A stretch of 64,000 bases of DNA. Source: Methanobrevibacter millerae. GTDB taxonomy: Archaea; Methanobacteriota; Methanobacteria; Methanobacteriales; Methanobacteriaceae. Below, piece by piece: positions 1-10,051 of this stretch (within the stretch, counting starts at the first letter, position 1; each line of letters begins with the position of its first letter). The notes beneath the pieces were generated by a model. The model was not told the DNA's origin, made no database searches, and was given only the letters and a program-made list of their open reading frames with translations. Position numbers and translations under genes: made by a program. The stretch lies in NCBI RefSeq assembly GCF_900103415.1, contig NZ_FMXB01000002.1, positions 1 through 64,000 on the forward strand, given 5' to 3'.

Positions 1-2474
1 CATAAATCATAGACATCATCACCCATGAAGAATGCAGAAACATGATAATCACGGGCAATAAGGTCTGAAACATTGAAACTAACCTTACCGTCAACTAACG
101 TTTCAGTATAGGCGACACCAGCAATAGTTACATAAACAGGACCATTAATAGGCTCGGAAGTGTTCACATTAACGGTGATGTTGTCACCAACTGTAATGTC
201 GGCAACACTAACTGTAATGTTAGATGATTTTTTACTGAATACAGTGACATTAGTGACATTGGTGGCAGGATAATAATTATTGTCACCTGCATAGTATGCT
301 GTAATGTTATAATCGCCTGCAGCCAATCCGCTTACGGTTAAATTAGCTATTCCTTTATATGCAAAAGTGGTGTAGTTAGTTCCGCCCACATCCACAATGA
401 TTAAATCCGTAATATTGCTTGACAATGTTATAGTCATGTCTAAATTATGACCTACAATAATGTCTGAAGCGTTGATTATTATATCTGTAGTTAATTTGTA
501 AACCGTGAAATTGACCACTGCGAAGTTTTCATTGAAGAAATCATCACCGAGATACATTACAGTGACATTATAGACACCTTCTTCAAGGTTGCTTAATGTT
601 AAATTGGTGATTCCTCCTTCGAGATATTTGTAGTATACAGTTCCGCTTACGTTAATTAACATTTCACCGGTTACATTTTCATTTAAGGTAATATTGATGA
701 TTTCAGACATGTCTTTTGTTATGTCATCAACATCAACATCAACAGTAGTATTTAATTTAATTACAGTAAAATTGTTGGTTGCTTCCTTAAAGTCATATAT
801 ACTATCAGAATATGGAACGTAAACTGTGTAATTACCTTCTTTCATCCATGGAAGTATTAAAACTGCCTTATGAGTATTTGTATTAATCGTGACATCAAAT
901 TCTTCTCCATTGACATAAATGGTCACTTCACCTTTTGCATATTCAGGGAAAGTAACTGTAATGGTATTGTTTTCAATTACAGTAATCAAATTTTCCAAAT
1001 CGATTGACAGTTCATAATCGCTAATTTTATCAATGCCAATGATAAATGCGGAAGTGATTGCATCAGTATGGTTTTCATCACCTGCATAATTTACACGACT
1101 ACTGTGGTCTCCAGGCATTAGCTCAATAGGTAAAACAGCTTTATTTCCTATGATTTCACAGGAATGAGGAACATTATCAACATAAATTGTGATATTTCCG
1201 GTTGCGCCGTCAGTTATGTATACGGTAATATTAACTGATCGGTTTTCTATGCTGACTGAAGGAGATAAAACTGTTTTGATTTTAAATACGGTAAATACAG
1301 TTGAATTTGATTTAAACCGATATTTTGCATCAGTGAAATTGATTGAAACATCATGGTCTCCAACCTTTAAATCAGGGACATTCAATGTTGCGATTCCGTT
1401 TTTAACTTCAGCCTTTTGAGGATTGCCCTTATCGATTGTAATATTCACAAATCCTATTGCGTCTTTCGGAAGTCTGACAATGACTGTTGCGTTTTCGCCA
1501 ATAATGATGTCTTCAACAGTTACGTTTAATAAATAGTCATTTGTTGGAGGAATAACAATTGATTTGCTCGTAGTGTTTGCAAAGTATTTTCCGTCGCCGT
1601 AGTAATTGACATAAACTACATATGGACCCGGATAAACATTACTGACATCCAAAGTGGCTTTGCCGTTATCAATCGTTACGTTTTTACTGATTGTAGTCTT
1701 TATGTTGATTAATACATTTCCAGTCGCATCCTTAGGAACACTTACAACAATAGTGTTGTTTACAAATTCAATGGCTATTGTGGAATTGACTTTACTTACC
1801 TTAAATGTTTTAGTCAGGTTTTTGCTTTCATATTTATTGTAACCTTGATACAATACTGTAATGTTGTATGTTCCGGCAGCCAAATCGGCGATATTGAATG
1901 ATACAAAACCTTTGTTTATCGCTTGCGAGTATGTTCTTTGAGAGAAGTTTCCGAAAATCAGCACGTCATCGGTTGCATCCTCAGGAAGGGTAATGTTGAC
2001 AATTTCAATTTGGCCGACGTTAATGTCGGATACGTTGAAGTCTAAAATGTAGTCTTTTACCTTAACTACAGTAATGTTTAAGGCTAAACTGGCAGGGTTA
2101 TATCTGTCGTCTCCGCTGTATGAAATTGACGGGGAGTATTGCTGTGCTACAGGATATCCAATAATCGTTAAATTAGCTGAACCGTTTACCAGATTTTTGG
2201 TTGTAGAAACACCACGTGAAACAAATGTAATAGTTCCTGTTGCATCTTTAGGCAACTGAACTTTAAACGTTACGTTTTCTCCCACTTCAACAGGGTTTTT
2301 GTATTCAGGATCCAAAACAACGTCCAGTTTGGAAATTACAACGGAACCCGTTTGAGTTTTTAAAGCATATTTTCCTTTTTCTTCAAAGCTTACTAAATAT
2401 GGAAATGTACCGTAATATGGAGCGGTTATGTTGATAACGGCCACACCATTATTCACTTCTCCCTTGAATTCCTT
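1..2474 (-). pseudogene. Adhesin-like protein, C-terminal continuation beyond an in-frame stop (partial)
   Basis: This is the same reading frame as the adhesin-like gene at 2475-7568, directly after its amber codon. I read all 824 codons down to position 1 and found no further stop, so the frame runs off the window edge. The translation is more of the same Ig-like repeats of about 90 residues, with recurring NVTVxI strands and YxGDDxY turns, many N-x-T/S sequons and no frameshift. There is no convincing ribosome binding site or start just after the stop, so it would be translated only by readthrough, reinitiation, or if the stop is a sequence error. In an intact gene it would be the cell-wall-proximal stalk. 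I infer a recent nonsense mutation or a base-call error. Confidence 0.75.
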
Positions 2475-5400
2475 CTAGAAGATTGTAACTGTTACGTTTC
2501 CGGTTGCATTAGTAGGCAATTTGACGGTGAATGTAATGTTGTCCCTTACGTAATTCGGATCAGTTACGGTTACGTTAAAGAGATAATCATTTACAGGGGA
2601 TACCTTGAAGTTTCCGTAAACAGTATCGTCTTCATATTTCCTGTCATCAGTTAATGATACTGATAACTGATATTGACCTTCAGCAAGACCAGTTACATTA
2701 AACCAGCCCGTTCCGTTTACAACTGTAACGACCTGATTAACGTATGGGGTATTGTCAATCGTTATTGTTACGTTGCCTGAAACGTCTGTTGGCAAGGTGA
2801 TTCTGATTGTTTCGTTTTGACCGACGAAAATGTCAGTTGGAGTTACCGTGAACGGATATTCAGAAACCTTTTTAACGATTACTTCAATTACTTTGGTTCC
2901 GTTATGATACTTGTCATCACCTGAGAAGAATACGGTCGTATTGTATACTCCATGAGGCAAGCCCGGAATGATAACGCGAGCGGAGCCGTTTGTGACATTT
3001 GCTGTGTAGTTTGTGTTGTTAATGCTTACAGTTACGGTTACGTTACCTGTCGCATCGGTAGGCAATTGAATATTAATAGTTAAGTTCTCATCTACTTTAG
3101 GTTCGTTTGCTTCAACGTCAAACTTGTAGGATGATATTTTGGATACATAAAGGTTTCCGGATTTCGCGGATTCTTCATACTTGTCATTTCCTAAATAGGT
3201 AATAGTACAGAAGTATTCACCTTCAGCCAAGCCGATAACTGGGTGATATACGGTTCCGTTAACTACGCTTGCATATTCAAGAGTTCTGTTTCCAACTTTA
3301 ATGGTTACCTGATCACCATCGGTAGCGTTAGGTAAATATACTTCCACATAAGCAATGTCACCGACGTGAATATCGTCCCCTTTAACAATAAAGACATAAT
3401 CAGAAGTTTTATTACTGTTTAAGGTGATATTCTTTGATCCCGGTTCATATTTATAGTTTCCGCTGTAGTCTATTTTAACCGGATACTTAGTATTTGGAGA
3501 CAAACCGCCAACAGTACAATTAGCATGCCCATTTTTAACAGGAACACCTATATATGTTTGGCCATTTATAGTAATGTTAACATGACCGTCTGCATCAGCA
3601 GGGAAAGTTACTGTAATGTTTGCATGAGTAGCATTTGCGACTCCGTTAGGTATGAAATCATAGTTGATGATTTTTCTTACATAGAAATCTTCAAATAACC
3701 TGTTGTATGGCTCGTATTTCCTATCTCCACCGTATGTTGCGTTAATCGAATATTTTCCAACAGGCAATCCTGAAATGTTTATGGAACCGGTTCCATTCTT
3801 AAGGGTTATGTTATATTTTGAACCATTAATCAGCAATGTTACGTTTCCTGTTGTATCATCTTCGAAAGTGATTATAATCGTCGCATTATCACCGACATAT
3901 ATGTCTTTAGCGACTAAATTTGAGTAATAATTGTGGATTCTACTGACTTCCAAGGTATATTCCTTTTTAGCAGGGAGGAATTTTCTGTTTCCTTCATAAG
4001 TTACATTGAACCGATAGGTATTCCATTCCAAACCTGTGATGTTGAAAGTAGCCAGTCCCCTATCAATTTCTGCAGTGTAATTGGTATTGTTTATTCTTAA
4101 GGTAATGTTACCTGTTGCTTCATCATCAATCTTTACTGTTATTATTGCATCGTCATCAACATATATCGTATGATTATACTCAGCAATCATATTCGGAGAT
4201 ACCCTTTCAAGGTTGACAGTGAATGTTCTGTTACCATTCATATATTTACTATCATTTACCAGATATACTATACCGTCATATTTACCACTTAAAAGATTTG
4301 GAATGATGACAGTATCTTTACCTTTACTCATATGTGCAGTGTAGTTCTTGCCATCTATTTCAACATAAACATCTCCATCAATATCTTTCGGAAGTGAGAT
4401 GTTGACATATACATTTAAGTCTTCATCACTTGTTGCAGTTACATTGAATGAATATTCGGCAACATAATTTACCATGAAAGATGATGTATTTGTAGCTGTG
4501 TTATATATATCATCTTCTGCATATGTAGCAATTACGTTATAGAGACCTCTTGGAAGATCACTTATAGTGAATGTAGCTACAGTGTTATTGGCATAGCCGT
4601 AATATCTTGTTCCATTAACATCAAGTAAAACAATACCTTGTGCATCACGTGGAAGGATAACACTTATGGTTTCATTGGCACCTACAGTAATTGGTGCAGT
4701 TTGAATAATAATGGTCATGTTCTTCTTACTTACTAAAAATGAAGATGTCTTATTAGCTTCATAATACTTATCATCACCTAAATAATGTACCCTTACACTA
4801 GTATTACCTGCAGTACAATTACTTAAATATATGACAATGGAAGATTTATTGTAAAAAGTATATACCTTATCATCAACACCAACAAGTACTTTACCAGTAA
4901 TATCCTTACTTAAGTCTATTTTAACAGTAGCTATTTCACCTGCTTTAACATCAGTAGTAGTGATATTTATTTCAGGCTGATATTTATATACAGTAAATTT
5001 AGTAGAATTATAGCTGTCACTAAAGTATGCATTACCAGAATAATATCCATATACAGTATAGTTATTACCAGCTAAGCCAGATAGATTAACTAAACCAGTA
5101 CTATTTACTAACTTAACAATATACATATCATTATTTACAAATAGGAATACATTACCAGTAGTACCATTAGTAGTATTAACGGTAATAGTAGCTATATCAC
5201 CATAGTATATATCAGATGCATTAACAATTATAGTTGAATTACGAAGTTGTACCTCAATTTCCATATTTGCAGAAACAGTTTGATTATACTCATGATATGA
5301 TGCAACTACATTATATGTATTTGGAGCCATATTATATAATGTTAATACAGCAGTACCATTAATAAGAGTTACATTATAATGAATATCGTTTACAGCCAAA

Positions 5401-7568
5401 TCAATTGTACCATTGTATGTAGTGTTGACAACAGTTGTTGTAAATACTACCTTTTCACCATAGTTTGTTTGGTTGATTGTCAGATTTAATAATAAATAAA
5501 TAATTCCACCGGTTCCAACATGGCAATTTGCCAAACCACAGTTTTCATATCCTAAAGAAGTGACAACATGCTCTCCAAGAGCAATATTGCTGATATAGGA
5601 CACATAATGGGTATTGTTGAATGTTGTAGTCAAATTAGCGGAATCATATACGTTAATTACACTATTATTCACTTTAATGTAGTTTCCGTTATCATCCAAA
5701 ACGGCAGTATGGATTATCATGCTGCTTGTATTGATTAATATCGTTTTATTGTTTAAAGAATTTACATAAGTTTGAGATGTGATAGTTCCGTTGTTGAGGA
5801 TTAAACTATCGAAATTGTTTGAATTGAAGCTGGCAGTACCATTGTTATAAACAACATAATCGCCGTTTTTCGGACCAAACTGATTATTGGACTTTAAAGT
5901 TAGGGAAGCATGTTCGTCAATATAAACCCCCTTGGTTCCTGAGAATGTGGAAGATTCGATTAATCCGTCATTACCATACCAGTAAACGGAACCCAAATGA
6001 GCGACTGTGTCATAGAAAATGCTGTTTTCAATGATTCCTGAGTTTCCTCTCCAGTAAATGGATCTGCCCGTTATACCGTCATTTGAATTGAAAGTTGATC
6101 CTTGGATTTTACCTTCGGCACCATTCCAATATATAGCTCCACCCAATACAGCCTCGTTATCTGTGAATACGGAATTATAAACTTGACCGTTGGATGCGAC
6201 ATATATTGCCCCACCTTCAACAGTAGCATTATTGTTTTTAAAATTGGAAATAGATAAAGTAAATTTACCATTTGCAAAGTAGACAGCTCCTCCTTTATTA
6301 GCCCTGTTAGTTTCAAATGTAGGTCCCGTCATGGATACCCAGTTTGGTGTGTTTGAATAGACTGCACCACCATTGTTGGTAGCATTGTTGTTAGTGAAAA
6401 GGGAATTTGAAACTGTCAATCTACTTAAATCACGATGAAGGTAAACAGCACCCCCATCCACTGCGGTGTTGCTGTCAAAGTTTGCATTCGTAAGAGATGA
6501 AACACCTGATCTGGACAAAATCGCACCACCAAATGTACCGGCAGTGTTATTTGTGAAATTTACATTTTCCATTTCATAGTCACGAGATTTAATTGCTCCA
6601 CCTTCGCTTGTCGCATAATTATTTTCAAATACAGAATTATAAATTTTTAAAAGCTCGCCTTGACCAAAACATAAGGCTCCTCCATGAATCGCATGATTTG
6701 AATAGAATTCAGAATCTCTGATTGTCAATGGTCCGGAATATCTAATGGATCCACCTTCAGAAGTAGGAGCGGAGTTATTTACAAATTTTGAAGAGGTAAT
6801 ATTTACTCTAACATATTTATTAATTATTATAGCTCCACCACCCCTCTCATTTACATCAGTGGATACTGAATTATCCGCAAAAGTACAATTTTCAATGTTA
6901 ACATCATATCCATGTTGATAATTAGTAGGCGAAGCTATTTGAATAGCACCACCAAATACATTAGCAGTGTTATTTCTAAAAATAGAATCAGCGATAGTTA
7001 CCAGACTATCCTCTCTAGATTTTATATAAACCGCTCCCCCACCAGTTGAAGTAGAAGAAACGGAATTTGAGTCAAATGTACAGTTTATTATATTAATTGT
7101 AGTTTGTGCATTAATGGCTCCTCCACTACCCGTAGAATAACCATTTACAAAATTAATGTTTCTAAATGTTATGTTTTGATACGTTGATGCAATCTGGAAT
7201 ATTCTGGCGGAATTCTTTCCGTCAATCGTATATCCCTGACCGTCAATTATAACATTTGACTTGGTAATGGGTACACCACTTATATAAGAACTAGTATATT
7301 CATAATCTTTATACAAATAAATAACCGGACCGGAAGCAGTACGTATATCATCATATAAATTAGTGAACGTTCCGGATGCAGTTAAGATATCATCATCCTC
7401 TTGAGACAATGATAATATTTCGTCAATTTTAATGTCATCAGCAGAAATATCAATGTTGCCGGCATCAATATTGGCTGTTAAATTTTCAGTCAATTGTTCA
7501 TCATTATGTGTAGCCGATGCACTAGATATAGACATCATGACACAAATTACTAAACAAATCAATATCAA
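2475..7568 (-). CDS. Large adhesin-like surface protein, interrupted by an amber codon
   Basis: Secreted surface protein of 1697 residues as read. A hydrophobic signal peptide (about residues 1-20, ending SSASA) is followed by a right-handed beta-helix region (about residues 80-600) with 13 GGAI/GGAV/GGAL-type turns of the Chlamydia-Pmp/pectate-lyase kind. About eleven Ig-like repeats (about 690-1697) follow, with NVT strands and many N-glycosylation sequons. Proteins of this build are abundant in Methanobrevibacter and are thought to mediate cell-cell adhesion. The listed start is a TTG at 7566-7568. The frame stays open upstream, and an ATT at 7581-7583 gives a better signal-peptide start (I-K-F-K-K) at correct spacing from a GGGGGT site. 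The gene ends at TAG 2475-2477 while the frame continues to the window edge, so this is probably a truncated form of a larger adhesin. Confidence 0.85.
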   Translation of the reverse strand: MILICLVICVMMSISSASATHNDEQLTENLTANIDAGNIDISADDIKIDEILSLSQEDDDILTASGTFTNLYDDIRTASGPVIYLYKDYEYTSSYISGVPITKSNVIIDGQGYTIDGKNSARIFQIASTYQNITFRNINFVNGYSTGSGGAINAQTTINIINCTFDSNSVSSTSTGGGAVYIKSREDSLVTIADSIFRNNTANVFGGAIQIASPTNYQHGYDVNIENCTFADNSVSTDVNERGGGAIIINKYVRVNITSSKFVNNSAPTSEGGSIRYSGPLTIRDSEFYSNHAIHGGALCFGQGELLKIYNSVFENNYATSEGGAIKSRDYEMENVNFTNNTAGTFGGAILSRSGVSSLTNANFDSNTAVDGGAVYLHRDLSRLTVSNSLFTNNNATNNGGAVYSNTPNWVSMTGPTFETNRANKGGAVYFANGKFTLSISNFKNNNATVEGGAIYVASNGQVYNSVFTDNEAVLGGAIYWNGAEGKIQGSTFNSNDGITGRSIYWRGNSGIIENSIFYDTVAHLGSVYWYGNDGLIESSTFSGTKGVYIDEHASLTLKSNNQFGPKNGDYVVYNNGTASFNSNNFDSLILNNGTITSQTYVNSLNNKTILINTSSMIIHTAVLDDNGNYIKVNNSVINVYDSANLTTTFNNTHYVSYISNIALGEHVVTSLGYENCGLANCHVGTGGIIYLLLNLTINQTNYGEKVVFTTTVVNTTYNGTIDLAVNDIHYNVTLINGTAVLTLYNMAPNTYNVVASYHEYNQTVSANMEIEVQLRNSTIIVNASDIYYGDIATITVNTTNGTTGNVFLFVNNDMYIVKLVNSTGLVNLSGLAGNNYTVYGYYSGNAYFSDSYNSTKFTVYKYQPEINITTTDVKAGEIATVKIDLSKDITGKVLVGVDDKVYTFYNKSSIVIYLSNCTAGNTSVRVHYLGDDKYYEANKTSSFLVSKKNMTIIIQTAPITVGANETISVILPRDAQGIVLLDVNGTRYYGYANNTVATFTISDLPRGLYNVIATYAEDDIYNTATNTSSFMVNYVAEYSFNVTATSDEDLNVYVNISLPKDIDGDVYVEIDGKNYTAHMSKGKDTVIIPNLLSGKYDGIVYLVNDSKYMNGNRTFTVNLERVSPNMIAEYNHTIYVDDDAIITVKIDDEATGNITLRINNTNYTAEIDRGLATFNITGLEWNTYRFNVTYEGNRKFLPAKKEYTLEVSRIHNYYSNLVAKDIYVGDNATIIITFEDDTTGNVTLLINGSKYNITLKNGTGSINISGLPVGKYSINATYGGDRKYEPYNRLFEDFYVRKIINYDFIPNGVANATHANITVTFPADADGHVNITINGQTYIGVPVKNGHANCTVGGLSPNTKYPVKIDYSGNYKYEPGSKNITLNSNKTSDYVFIVKGDDIHVGDIAYVEVYLPNATDGDQVTIKVGNRTLEYASVVNGTVYHPVIGLAEGEYFCTITYLGNDKYEESAKSGNLYVSKISSYKFDVEANEPKVDENLTINIQLPTDATGNVTVTVSINNTNYTANVTNGSARVIIPGLPHGVYNTTVFFSGDDKYHNGTKVIEVIVKKVSEYPFTVTPTDIFVGQNETIRITLPTDVSGNVTITIDNTPYVNQVVTVVNGTGWFNVTGLAEGQYQLSVSLTDDRKYEDDTVYGNFKVSPVNDYLFNVTVTDPNYVRDNITFTVKLPTNATGNVTVTIF

Positions 7569-7589
7569 TTTTTTGAATTTAATAAATAA

Positions 7590-7595
7590 ACCCCC
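7590..7595 (-). promoter_or_regulatory. GGGGGT ribosome binding site of the adhesin gene
   Basis: GGGGGT on the minus strand is one mismatch from GGAGGT. It lies exactly 6 nt before an ATT codon (7581-7583) that is in frame with the adhesin. The surface protein gene at 63878 has the same hexamer with the same 6-nt spacing before a TTG start. This supports translation from the ATT, or loss of an original ATG/TTG/GTG at that place. Confidence 0.5.
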
Positions 7596-7720
7596 AATAT
7601 ATAACTTATTATAACAGATTATAATAAAATATTACAATTGCTAATGTCTTTAATATATGTTTTAAGTATATATATAGATATTGGAAAAAAAAGCTGAATT
7701 GAACAAATAATCTTAAATGT

Positions 7721-7750: not shown

Positions 7751-10051
7751 TCAAAGATTTAATTCTTCGATTTTTTTGTCGAAATCCGTTAATTTACGTG
7801 CAAGTCCAGTGAAATATGGAATATAAACTTTTGAAAACATTATTCTTTCAGGATCCTCATTTAATTCACTTAAAGTTTCCTTAACCCTCTCGACTTTACG
7901 TTCAACCTCATCGTACATCAAATCACCAGGAAATTCACCAATGAATACGCCGTCAGCACCGTTTTCCAAGGCATACTTAATGTGGTTCGGCCTTACTCGA
8001 TTAACCGAAATTACCTTTATGATATGAATTGATTCAGGGTAGGATAATCTGTTTACTCCAATATTGTCTGCCGCAGTGTAGCCAATATTATCTAAAAAGA
8101 CCAAAATCATGCGCTCATCAGGCTGTTTTTTGGCTAAAACGCCATTGATTGTGGCCATAATCTTTTCATCGATGTTACCGTTGACATGAATTGCTTTCTG
8201 CATGCATCCGACCAGACATTTTCCGCATCCTGTACAGGCCATCGGGTCAATGTAGACCTCATCATCCTGAATGCTCATGGATTTGTACTTGCATCTCTCA
8301 ATGCAGTCTCCACAAAGTATACATTTTTCCTTGTCGATTTCTGCAATGAATGGCTCGATTTCAACACCACCGTAGTTATATTCACAAACCTTTGATGCTG
8401 AGGCTGTTGCCTGCATTATGGATTCGGTAATGTCCTTTGGATCCTGTGCGGTTCCGCAGACAAAGATTCCCTGAACGTCTGTTGTGACCGGCTTGATTTT
8501 GGGATGTGATTCCTTAATGAATCCGTCTTCGGTTGTTCCTATATTCAGGATTTCGGCGATTTCACGGGTACCGTCTGAAGGCTCCATGGCAGTTGACAAT
8601 ACCACCATATCGGCTTCGATTTCAATGAAATCACCTTTAAGGGTATCTTCAGTTCTGACTATGAAGCTGTCCCCTTTCTTAACGACCTCACCAGGTCTTC
8701 CACGGATAAATCTAACTTCGTTTTCCTGAGTATGCTTATAGTACTTTTCAAACATTCCGGGAGTCCTAACATCGGTATAACATATTACGACATCGGTATC
8801 AGGATTCTTATGCTTGATGATATTTGCATTTTTAAGGGCGACTGTACAGCATATTTTAGAGCAGTACCTGTGTCCGTCAGGCTTTTCATCCCTTGAACCT
8901 ACGCACTGTATCATCACGACCCTTTTCGGAACTTCGCCGTTGGATTTGAGGAGTTTGCCTTTTGTCGGACCGTTAACTCCTGTGATACGACCCAATTCTG
9001 ACTGTGTTATAACATCATCATAGCGGGTATATCCGTATTCTGGTCTTTTATCCATGTCAAATAGCTTATGGCCGGTTGCAACAATGATTGAACCTACCTG
9101 GAGAGGTATCTTTTCGCTTCTGCCCCGAAGCTTTATGGCACGCATATTGCAGACCTTTACGCAATTGCTGCATTTTGTACAGTTATCCATATCAATTACA
9201 TAAGATTCAGGATATGACTGACCGAATGGTCTGTATATTGCCTTTCTCATGGATAATCCATCATTCCAGTCATCGGGAACTTCAACTTCACATGCCTGTG
9301 CGCATTTTCCGCATGCGATACATCTTTCGGTATCGACATACCTCGGTGACTTTTCAACGATTAAATTGTATGTTCCGGCACGCCTTTCGGCTTCAATTAC
9401 CTTTGCATTGGTTAAAACCTCAATGTTGTCATTCCAGACAAGTTCATTAAGGATAGGATTCAAAAGACACATTCCGCACTCTTCAGCAATCTTTACAGGG
9501 GAGAAAACCTTACCGATTTTGGCCATGTGTCCTCCGATTGACGGTGACTGTTCAATCAGAGTGACTTTGGTTCCCTGCTTTGCCAATGATAAAGCAGCGT
9601 TCATACCGGCAATTCCGCCGCCGATAACTGCCACGTCATCGGGAGTCTGGCAATAGATCGGATCGACCGCATCTGACTGCTTAACCTTTTCGATTGAGGC
9701 GTTAATTAACGTTATTGCCTTGTGGGTTGCCTTTTTTGAATCGGAATGAACCCATGAGCACTGTTCACGTACATTGGCCATGTCCATCAGGTAAGGATTT
9801 AGAGGCTTTACGTAATCCTGAAATGTCTTTTCATGGCTTATCGGTGAACATGCCGCTACAACAACACGGTCAAGGTCGTAATCGAATATTGCATCACGGA
9901 TAATCTTACGGCCATTGAGGGAACATAAGTTCTCGAACTGCCCAACAAATTCAACATCAAGGGAGGCTCTGACTTCATCCAAATCGATTGTATCTGAAAT
10001 ATTTCCTCCACATTCACATAAAAACACGCCAACTTTCAAATCATTTCTCAT
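7751..10051 (-). CDS. hdrA: HdrA-type iron-sulfur flavoprotein with C-terminal MvhD-like domain
   Basis: FAD- and Fe-S-containing electron-transfer subunit of a heterodisulfide-reductase complex, expected in the cytoplasm. In order: N-terminal HdrA domain with the LCECGGNI motif (residues 11-18); a Rossmann FAD site VIGGGIAG (142-149); two ferredoxin clusters near C244-C254 and C291-C301; two more 4Fe-4S motifs at about 574-585 and 604-614; then a 126-residue tail (641-766). The tail aligns by eye with MvhD (YPxSIxIIKV, NGADGVFIG, FPGD) but contains no cysteine, so it cannot bind the usual [2Fe-2S] cluster. At 766 aa it is longer than the roughly 650-aa HdrA of the classical Mvh-Hdr complex and resembles HdrA2-type fusions. 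It overlaps hdrB by 4 nt (ATGA) and is the last gene of the comA operon. Whether it serves CoM-S-S-CoB reduction or CoM synthesis is open. Confidence 0.9.
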   Translation of the reverse strand: MRNDLKVGVFLCECGGNISDTIDLDEVRASLDVEFVGQFENLCSLNGRKIIRDAIFDYDLDRVVVAACSPISHEKTFQDYVKPLNPYLMDMANVREQCSWVHSDSKKATHKAITLINASIEKVKQSDAVDPIYCQTPDDVAVIGGGIAGMNAALSLAKQGTKVTLIEQSPSIGGHMAKIGKVFSPVKIAEECGMCLLNPILNELVWNDNIEVLTNAKVIEAERRAGTYNLIVEKSPRYVDTERCIACGKCAQACEVEVPDDWNDGLSMRKAIYRPFGQSYPESYVIDMDNCTKCSNCVKVCNMRAIKLRGRSEKIPLQVGSIIVATGHKLFDMDKRPEYGYTRYDDVITQSELGRITGVNGPTKGKLLKSNGEVPKRVVMIQCVGSRDEKPDGHRYCSKICCTVALKNANIIKHKNPDTDVVICYTDVRTPGMFEKYYKHTQENEVRFIRGRPGEVVKKGDSFIVRTEDTLKGDFIEIEADMVVLSTAMEPSDGTREIAEILNIGTTEDGFIKESHPKIKPVTTDVQGIFVCGTAQDPKDITESIMQATASASKVCEYNYGGVEIEPFIAEIDKEKCILCGDCIERCKYKSMSIQDDEVYIDPMACTGCGKCLVGCMQKAIHVNGNIDEKIMATINGVLAKKQPDERMILVFLDNIGYTAADNIGVNRLSYPESIHIIKVISVNRVRPNHIKYALENGADGVFIGEFPGDLMYDEVERKVERVKETLSELNEDPERIMFSKVYIPYFTGLARKLTDFDKKIEELNL

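Follow-up and report, generated by a model that had tools for sequence, protein, structure and literature searches.

A single in-frame amber codon in a giant adhesin-like protein gene of Methanobrevibacter millerae, probably a very young nonsense mutation

The window, i.e., the whole stretch of 64,000 nucleotides analyzed here, belongs to a draft genome of 2.72 Mb in 48 contigs, and its first bases are occupied by a giant adhesin-like gene interrupted by one stop codon (Table 1). On the minus strand, the site reads ...GTT ACA ATC TTC TAG AAG GAA TTC AAG.... In the list of open reading frames, the part before the stop appears as 2475..7568 with a TTG start and 1697 amino acids, while the frame past the stop stays open from 2474 to the first bases of the window. 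The translation of 7751-3 contained only this one stop within the adhesin gene, the type of repeat was identical on either side, and the sequences of relatives aligned across the site in one frame, so that a frameshift is absent. The preliminary description of this DNA had reported the TAG in frame with 1697 codons before it and at least 824 after it, no stop in 1-2474, and the same Ig-like repeats on both sides; the sequence, the list of reading frames, and the translation confirmed the first of these, all 824 minus-strand codons were open, and both parts matched the same repeat family.

Table 1. Features at the adhesin-like locus, in window coordinates
Feature	Position	Strand	Remarks
In-frame TAG (amber)	2475..2477	-	Relatives have Gly, Ala or Thr
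Adhesin-like gene, upstream part, about 1700 codons	2478..7583	-	Hydrophobic N-terminal segment, Chlam_PMP beta-helix, Big_3_5 Ig-like repeats
Adhesin-like gene, downstream part, 824 codons of Big_3_5, stop-free	3..2474	-	Cut at contig end; resumes at G000:C24:1-5594
Upstream neighbour, HdrA/FlpD-type iron-sulphur flavoprotein	7751..10051	-	The G014 and G009 orthologues have this neighbour in front of them too

The repeat family is Big_3_5 of Pfam, which was matched in both parts (3.8e-54 and 1.1e-60); Chlam_PMP beta-helix repeats were matched in the N-terminal part (1.1e-19), and an orthologue of the gene carries 30 Big_3_5 stretches. Adhesin-like proteins (ALPs) of Group I, Subgroup IA, consist of an N-terminal membrane anchor, a right-handed beta-helix, and archaeal Big domains, and in this scheme the anchor is N-terminal in most cases (PMC11532034). 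Many very large ALPs have been reported from M. millerae SM9 (PMC4987999). The window gene shares with Subgroup IA the giant size and the order of a hydrophobic N-terminal segment, beta-helix repeats, and many Big-type Ig-like repeats, whereas it differs in being cut by an in-frame TAG at approximately 40% of its length. Judged by its domain order, it is a giant ALP of gut Methanobrevibacter with Subgroup IA architecture.

At the N-terminus of the gene product, read by eye, a stretch rich in lysine precedes a run of hydrophobic residues; the first candidate start is ATT at 7583-7581 and the first conventional one is TTG at 7568-7566. No ATG precedes the conserved lysine-rich leader in the window gene or its orthologues. 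A stretch resembling GGGGGTTT-N-TTT-ATT-AAA is common to the window (7566-7598, minus strand) and two orthologues (L027:624-660 and L028:4627-4660), and this common ATT stretch suggests an AUU start for the gene and its orthologues. The exact motif was present in only 2 of 67 genomes of the genus and is thus specific to this group of orthologues.

Contig C2 (202,544 bp) begins with the first base of the window, where the contig but not the gene comes to an end; thus, the adhesin gene runs off the contig there. The putative remainder is on contig C24, where bases 1-1611 align to residues 3005-3540 of the orthologue in genome G035 with 61% identity and bases 3276-5591 to residues 3428-4198 with 64%. 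Moreover, the synthetase-like gene after the C24 part is the same neighbour as that after the G035 orthologue. This linkage consists of orthologue alignment and a common neighbour rather than joined sequence, and no direct overlap joining C2 to the next contig was found. Approximately 470 codons are missing between the two contigs, and C24 has a gap of 1650 N at 1611-3260. Measured with the relatives as a ruler, the TAG lies near residue 1700 of approximately 4200 to 4500. Two contig ends (G000:C2:1 and G000:C24:1) and the 1650-N gap fall within this one gene, and many other adhesin frames of the draft stop at contig edges, e.g., on C12, C19, C27, C28, C29, C38, and C39; accordingly, gene lengths there are assembly limits. 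As drafts can split giant adhesin genes over contigs, truncation must be distinguished from contig ends.

The locus was compared with that of relatives. The relatives were Methanobrevibacter genomes, among them the goat-reticulum MAG RGIG3316 (G035), the roe-deer MAG RGIG4352, and the M. millerae MAG SIG13 (G009). An uninterrupted single gene occupied the same syntenic place in G035 (4199 codons), G014 (4471), and G006 (4547; stop included), and the G009 orthologue continued uninterrupted for 3206 codons to a contig end. Every relative read had a sense codon in the column of the TAG, namely, Ala in RGIG3316 and RGIG4352, Gly in SIG13, G014, and G006, and Thr in G022, so the intact orthologues expected beside a nonsense allele are present. 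With a sense codon in each of these relatives, the stop is derived in the lineage of the window. The TAG differs from their codons at two or three positions.

Within the genome itself, approximately 27 further large adhesin frames were surveyed, and none was cut by an in-frame stop; adjacent adhesin frames each had their own leader or lay at contig ends. A habit of frequent stops in the ALP genes of this genome was therefore not seen, and the interruption, being that of the sole interrupted ALP frame in the survey, is more than chance.

The two parts of the gene were also compared for signs of relaxed selection. Against the G035 orthologue, amino-acid identity was 61% upstream and 66% downstream of the stop. 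The NG86 estimates were dN 0.284 and dS 1.491 upstream and dN 0.246 and dS 1.325 downstream, with synonymous changes near saturation; both parts thus had similar conservation and a dN well under dS. In a relative-rate test of the downstream part with G014 as the outgroup, 84 vs 86 changes were counted, and the window lineage was not accelerated. No further stop occurred in 2132 readable downstream codons, whereas the approximately 470 missing codons and the 1650-N gap may contain further lesions. As 3.3% of random point changes create a stop, the absence of a second one has a probability of 0.05 at approximately 1.4% neutral divergence. Thus, provided that selection on the downstream part has ceased, the mutation would be young, with less than approximately 1.4% neutral divergence since it arose. 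These figures put numbers on the earlier argument that an old pseudogene would have more damage, which holds, although an intact downstream frame by itself does not distinguish a young mutation from readthrough; the distinction comes from the tests described below. The TAG also makes a CTAG, a word under-represented four-fold in the whole window (33 vs 126 expected), and the creation of an avoided word fits a change that is recent and has not been under selection.

An error in the draft consensus, or a minor variant, would mean that at least one base is wrong and the gene really intact. The draft is in 48 contigs, this repeat-rich gene itself contains contig ends and a scaffold gap, and the gene is intact in every relative. 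However, the site lies outside homopolymers and near-identical repeats, the only other match of the surrounding 401 bp in the genome being 72% over 90 bp. The two or three differences from the codons of relatives may also speak against an error, depending on the immediate ancestor codon. The base-call error listed in the preliminary description is considered unlikely, while still deserving some weight as the main rival.

Amber readthrough or recoding by pyrrolysine or a suppressor tRNA would yield the full-length protein and let the stop regulate its length, and a long downstream frame that is intact without detectable relaxation would be expected of it. Pyrrolysine-type amber recoding occurs in Methanosarcina and Methanomassiliicoccales. 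The window gene resembles such cases in having an in-frame TAG with an open frame on either side, but it does not encode a methyltransferase, and no amber-decoding parts were found. Matches of the genome to the models of PylS and PylD fell far short of the curated cut-offs, the scores being 38.4 against 178.15 bits and 21.4 against 150.05 bits, respectively, while one control genome exceeded the cut-off in each search. No tRNA with a CUA anticodon was found at the 77 tRNA places matched by Rfam, on all of which ARAGORN was run, although a tRNA-Pyl of unusual form might escape both programs; in the unresolved 6-base loops of two degenerate tRNAs, inspection by eye showed no CUA. Furthermore, TAG is a common terminator here. 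It ends 12 of 55 non-overlapping, greedily picked reading frames of the window, the adhesin frame included, and is the proper C-terminal stop of nine other ALP frames; aRF1 is present in the genome, and the stop is conserved in no relative. The readthrough raised in the preliminary description is therefore unsupported and is judged very improbable. A tolerated TAG that is partly read through by an unrecognised Methanobrevibacter mechanism, so that the one gene yields adhesin of both the short and the full length, is rated slightly lower again.

The number of tRNA matches in this genome (77) is higher than the 31-38 found in six relatives of the genus. Many lie in dense arrays, some of them degenerate, at G000:C5:83111-84081 and 89566-91737 and at G000:C8:49568-50940 (L095 and L097), and ClpP- and ClpX-like reading frames stand between the two arrays on C5 (L095:10878-12567). 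An integrated element is one possible source of these arrays, and contamination is another.

Repeat-bearing surface proteins are frequent targets of switching in bacteria, and the suggestion that the stop is a phase-variable-like state, or an allele switched by recombination, agrees with this. At the site, however, there were no tandem or inverted repeats, the genome had no donor copy or near-identical copy for gene conversion, the change is a substitution and not slippage, and no recombinase domain was found in the eight neighbouring reading frames scanned. This suggestion thus lacks support, and switching is scarcely to be expected here. A 10-bp palindrome around the stop, CTTCTAGAAG, was considered but is not special, as the window has 95 such palindromes. 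Among the papers searched, none dealt with phase variation or nonsense alleles in Methanobrevibacter adhesins. The least credible explanation is a split into two functional genes: although a GTG at 2456-2454 (minus strand) has a weak GGGAG upstream, the first ATG after the TAG comes only at codon 453 and no hydrophobic leader or anchor is visible there, which makes an independent downstream gene unlikely, and the TAG also lies within an Ig domain of what is a single gene in all relatives.

A single nonsense mutation of very recent origin is therefore, very probably, what interrupts this giant ALP gene of a gut Methanobrevibacter. This agrees with the very recent nonsense mutation considered at the outset, as the relatives have sense codons, the downstream frame is intact and shows no faster evolution, and termination at TAG is normal here. 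Translation would end at the TAG, and the predicted product of approximately 1700 residues, secreted or membrane-anchored, would comprise the N-terminal segment, the beta-helix, and some Ig-like repeats. The distal 60%, approximately 2500 residues that make up Ig-like stalk and the conserved C-terminus, would be lost. As the membrane anchor of ALPs is mostly N-terminal, the truncated protein may nevertheless be displayed, its stalk being reduced in length. The allele would be a loss-of-function or short-stalk variant heading to decay, or else a strain polymorphism.

Intestinal Methanobacteriota have raised numbers of pseudogenes and ALPs (PMC13135261). The window gene is like these pseudogenes in that shortening or inactivation has befallen a surface-protein gene in a single lineage, but unlike them it has one lesion, no frameshift, and no sign of decay, which places it at an earlier stage. 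As a decoding phenomenon, the TAG would gain importance only if peptides past it were found. The adhesin repertoire of the genus varies from one species to another, and contact with other gut microbes is believed to depend on it; the allele described here would provide a dated case of a giant archaeal surface protein shortened within a strain.
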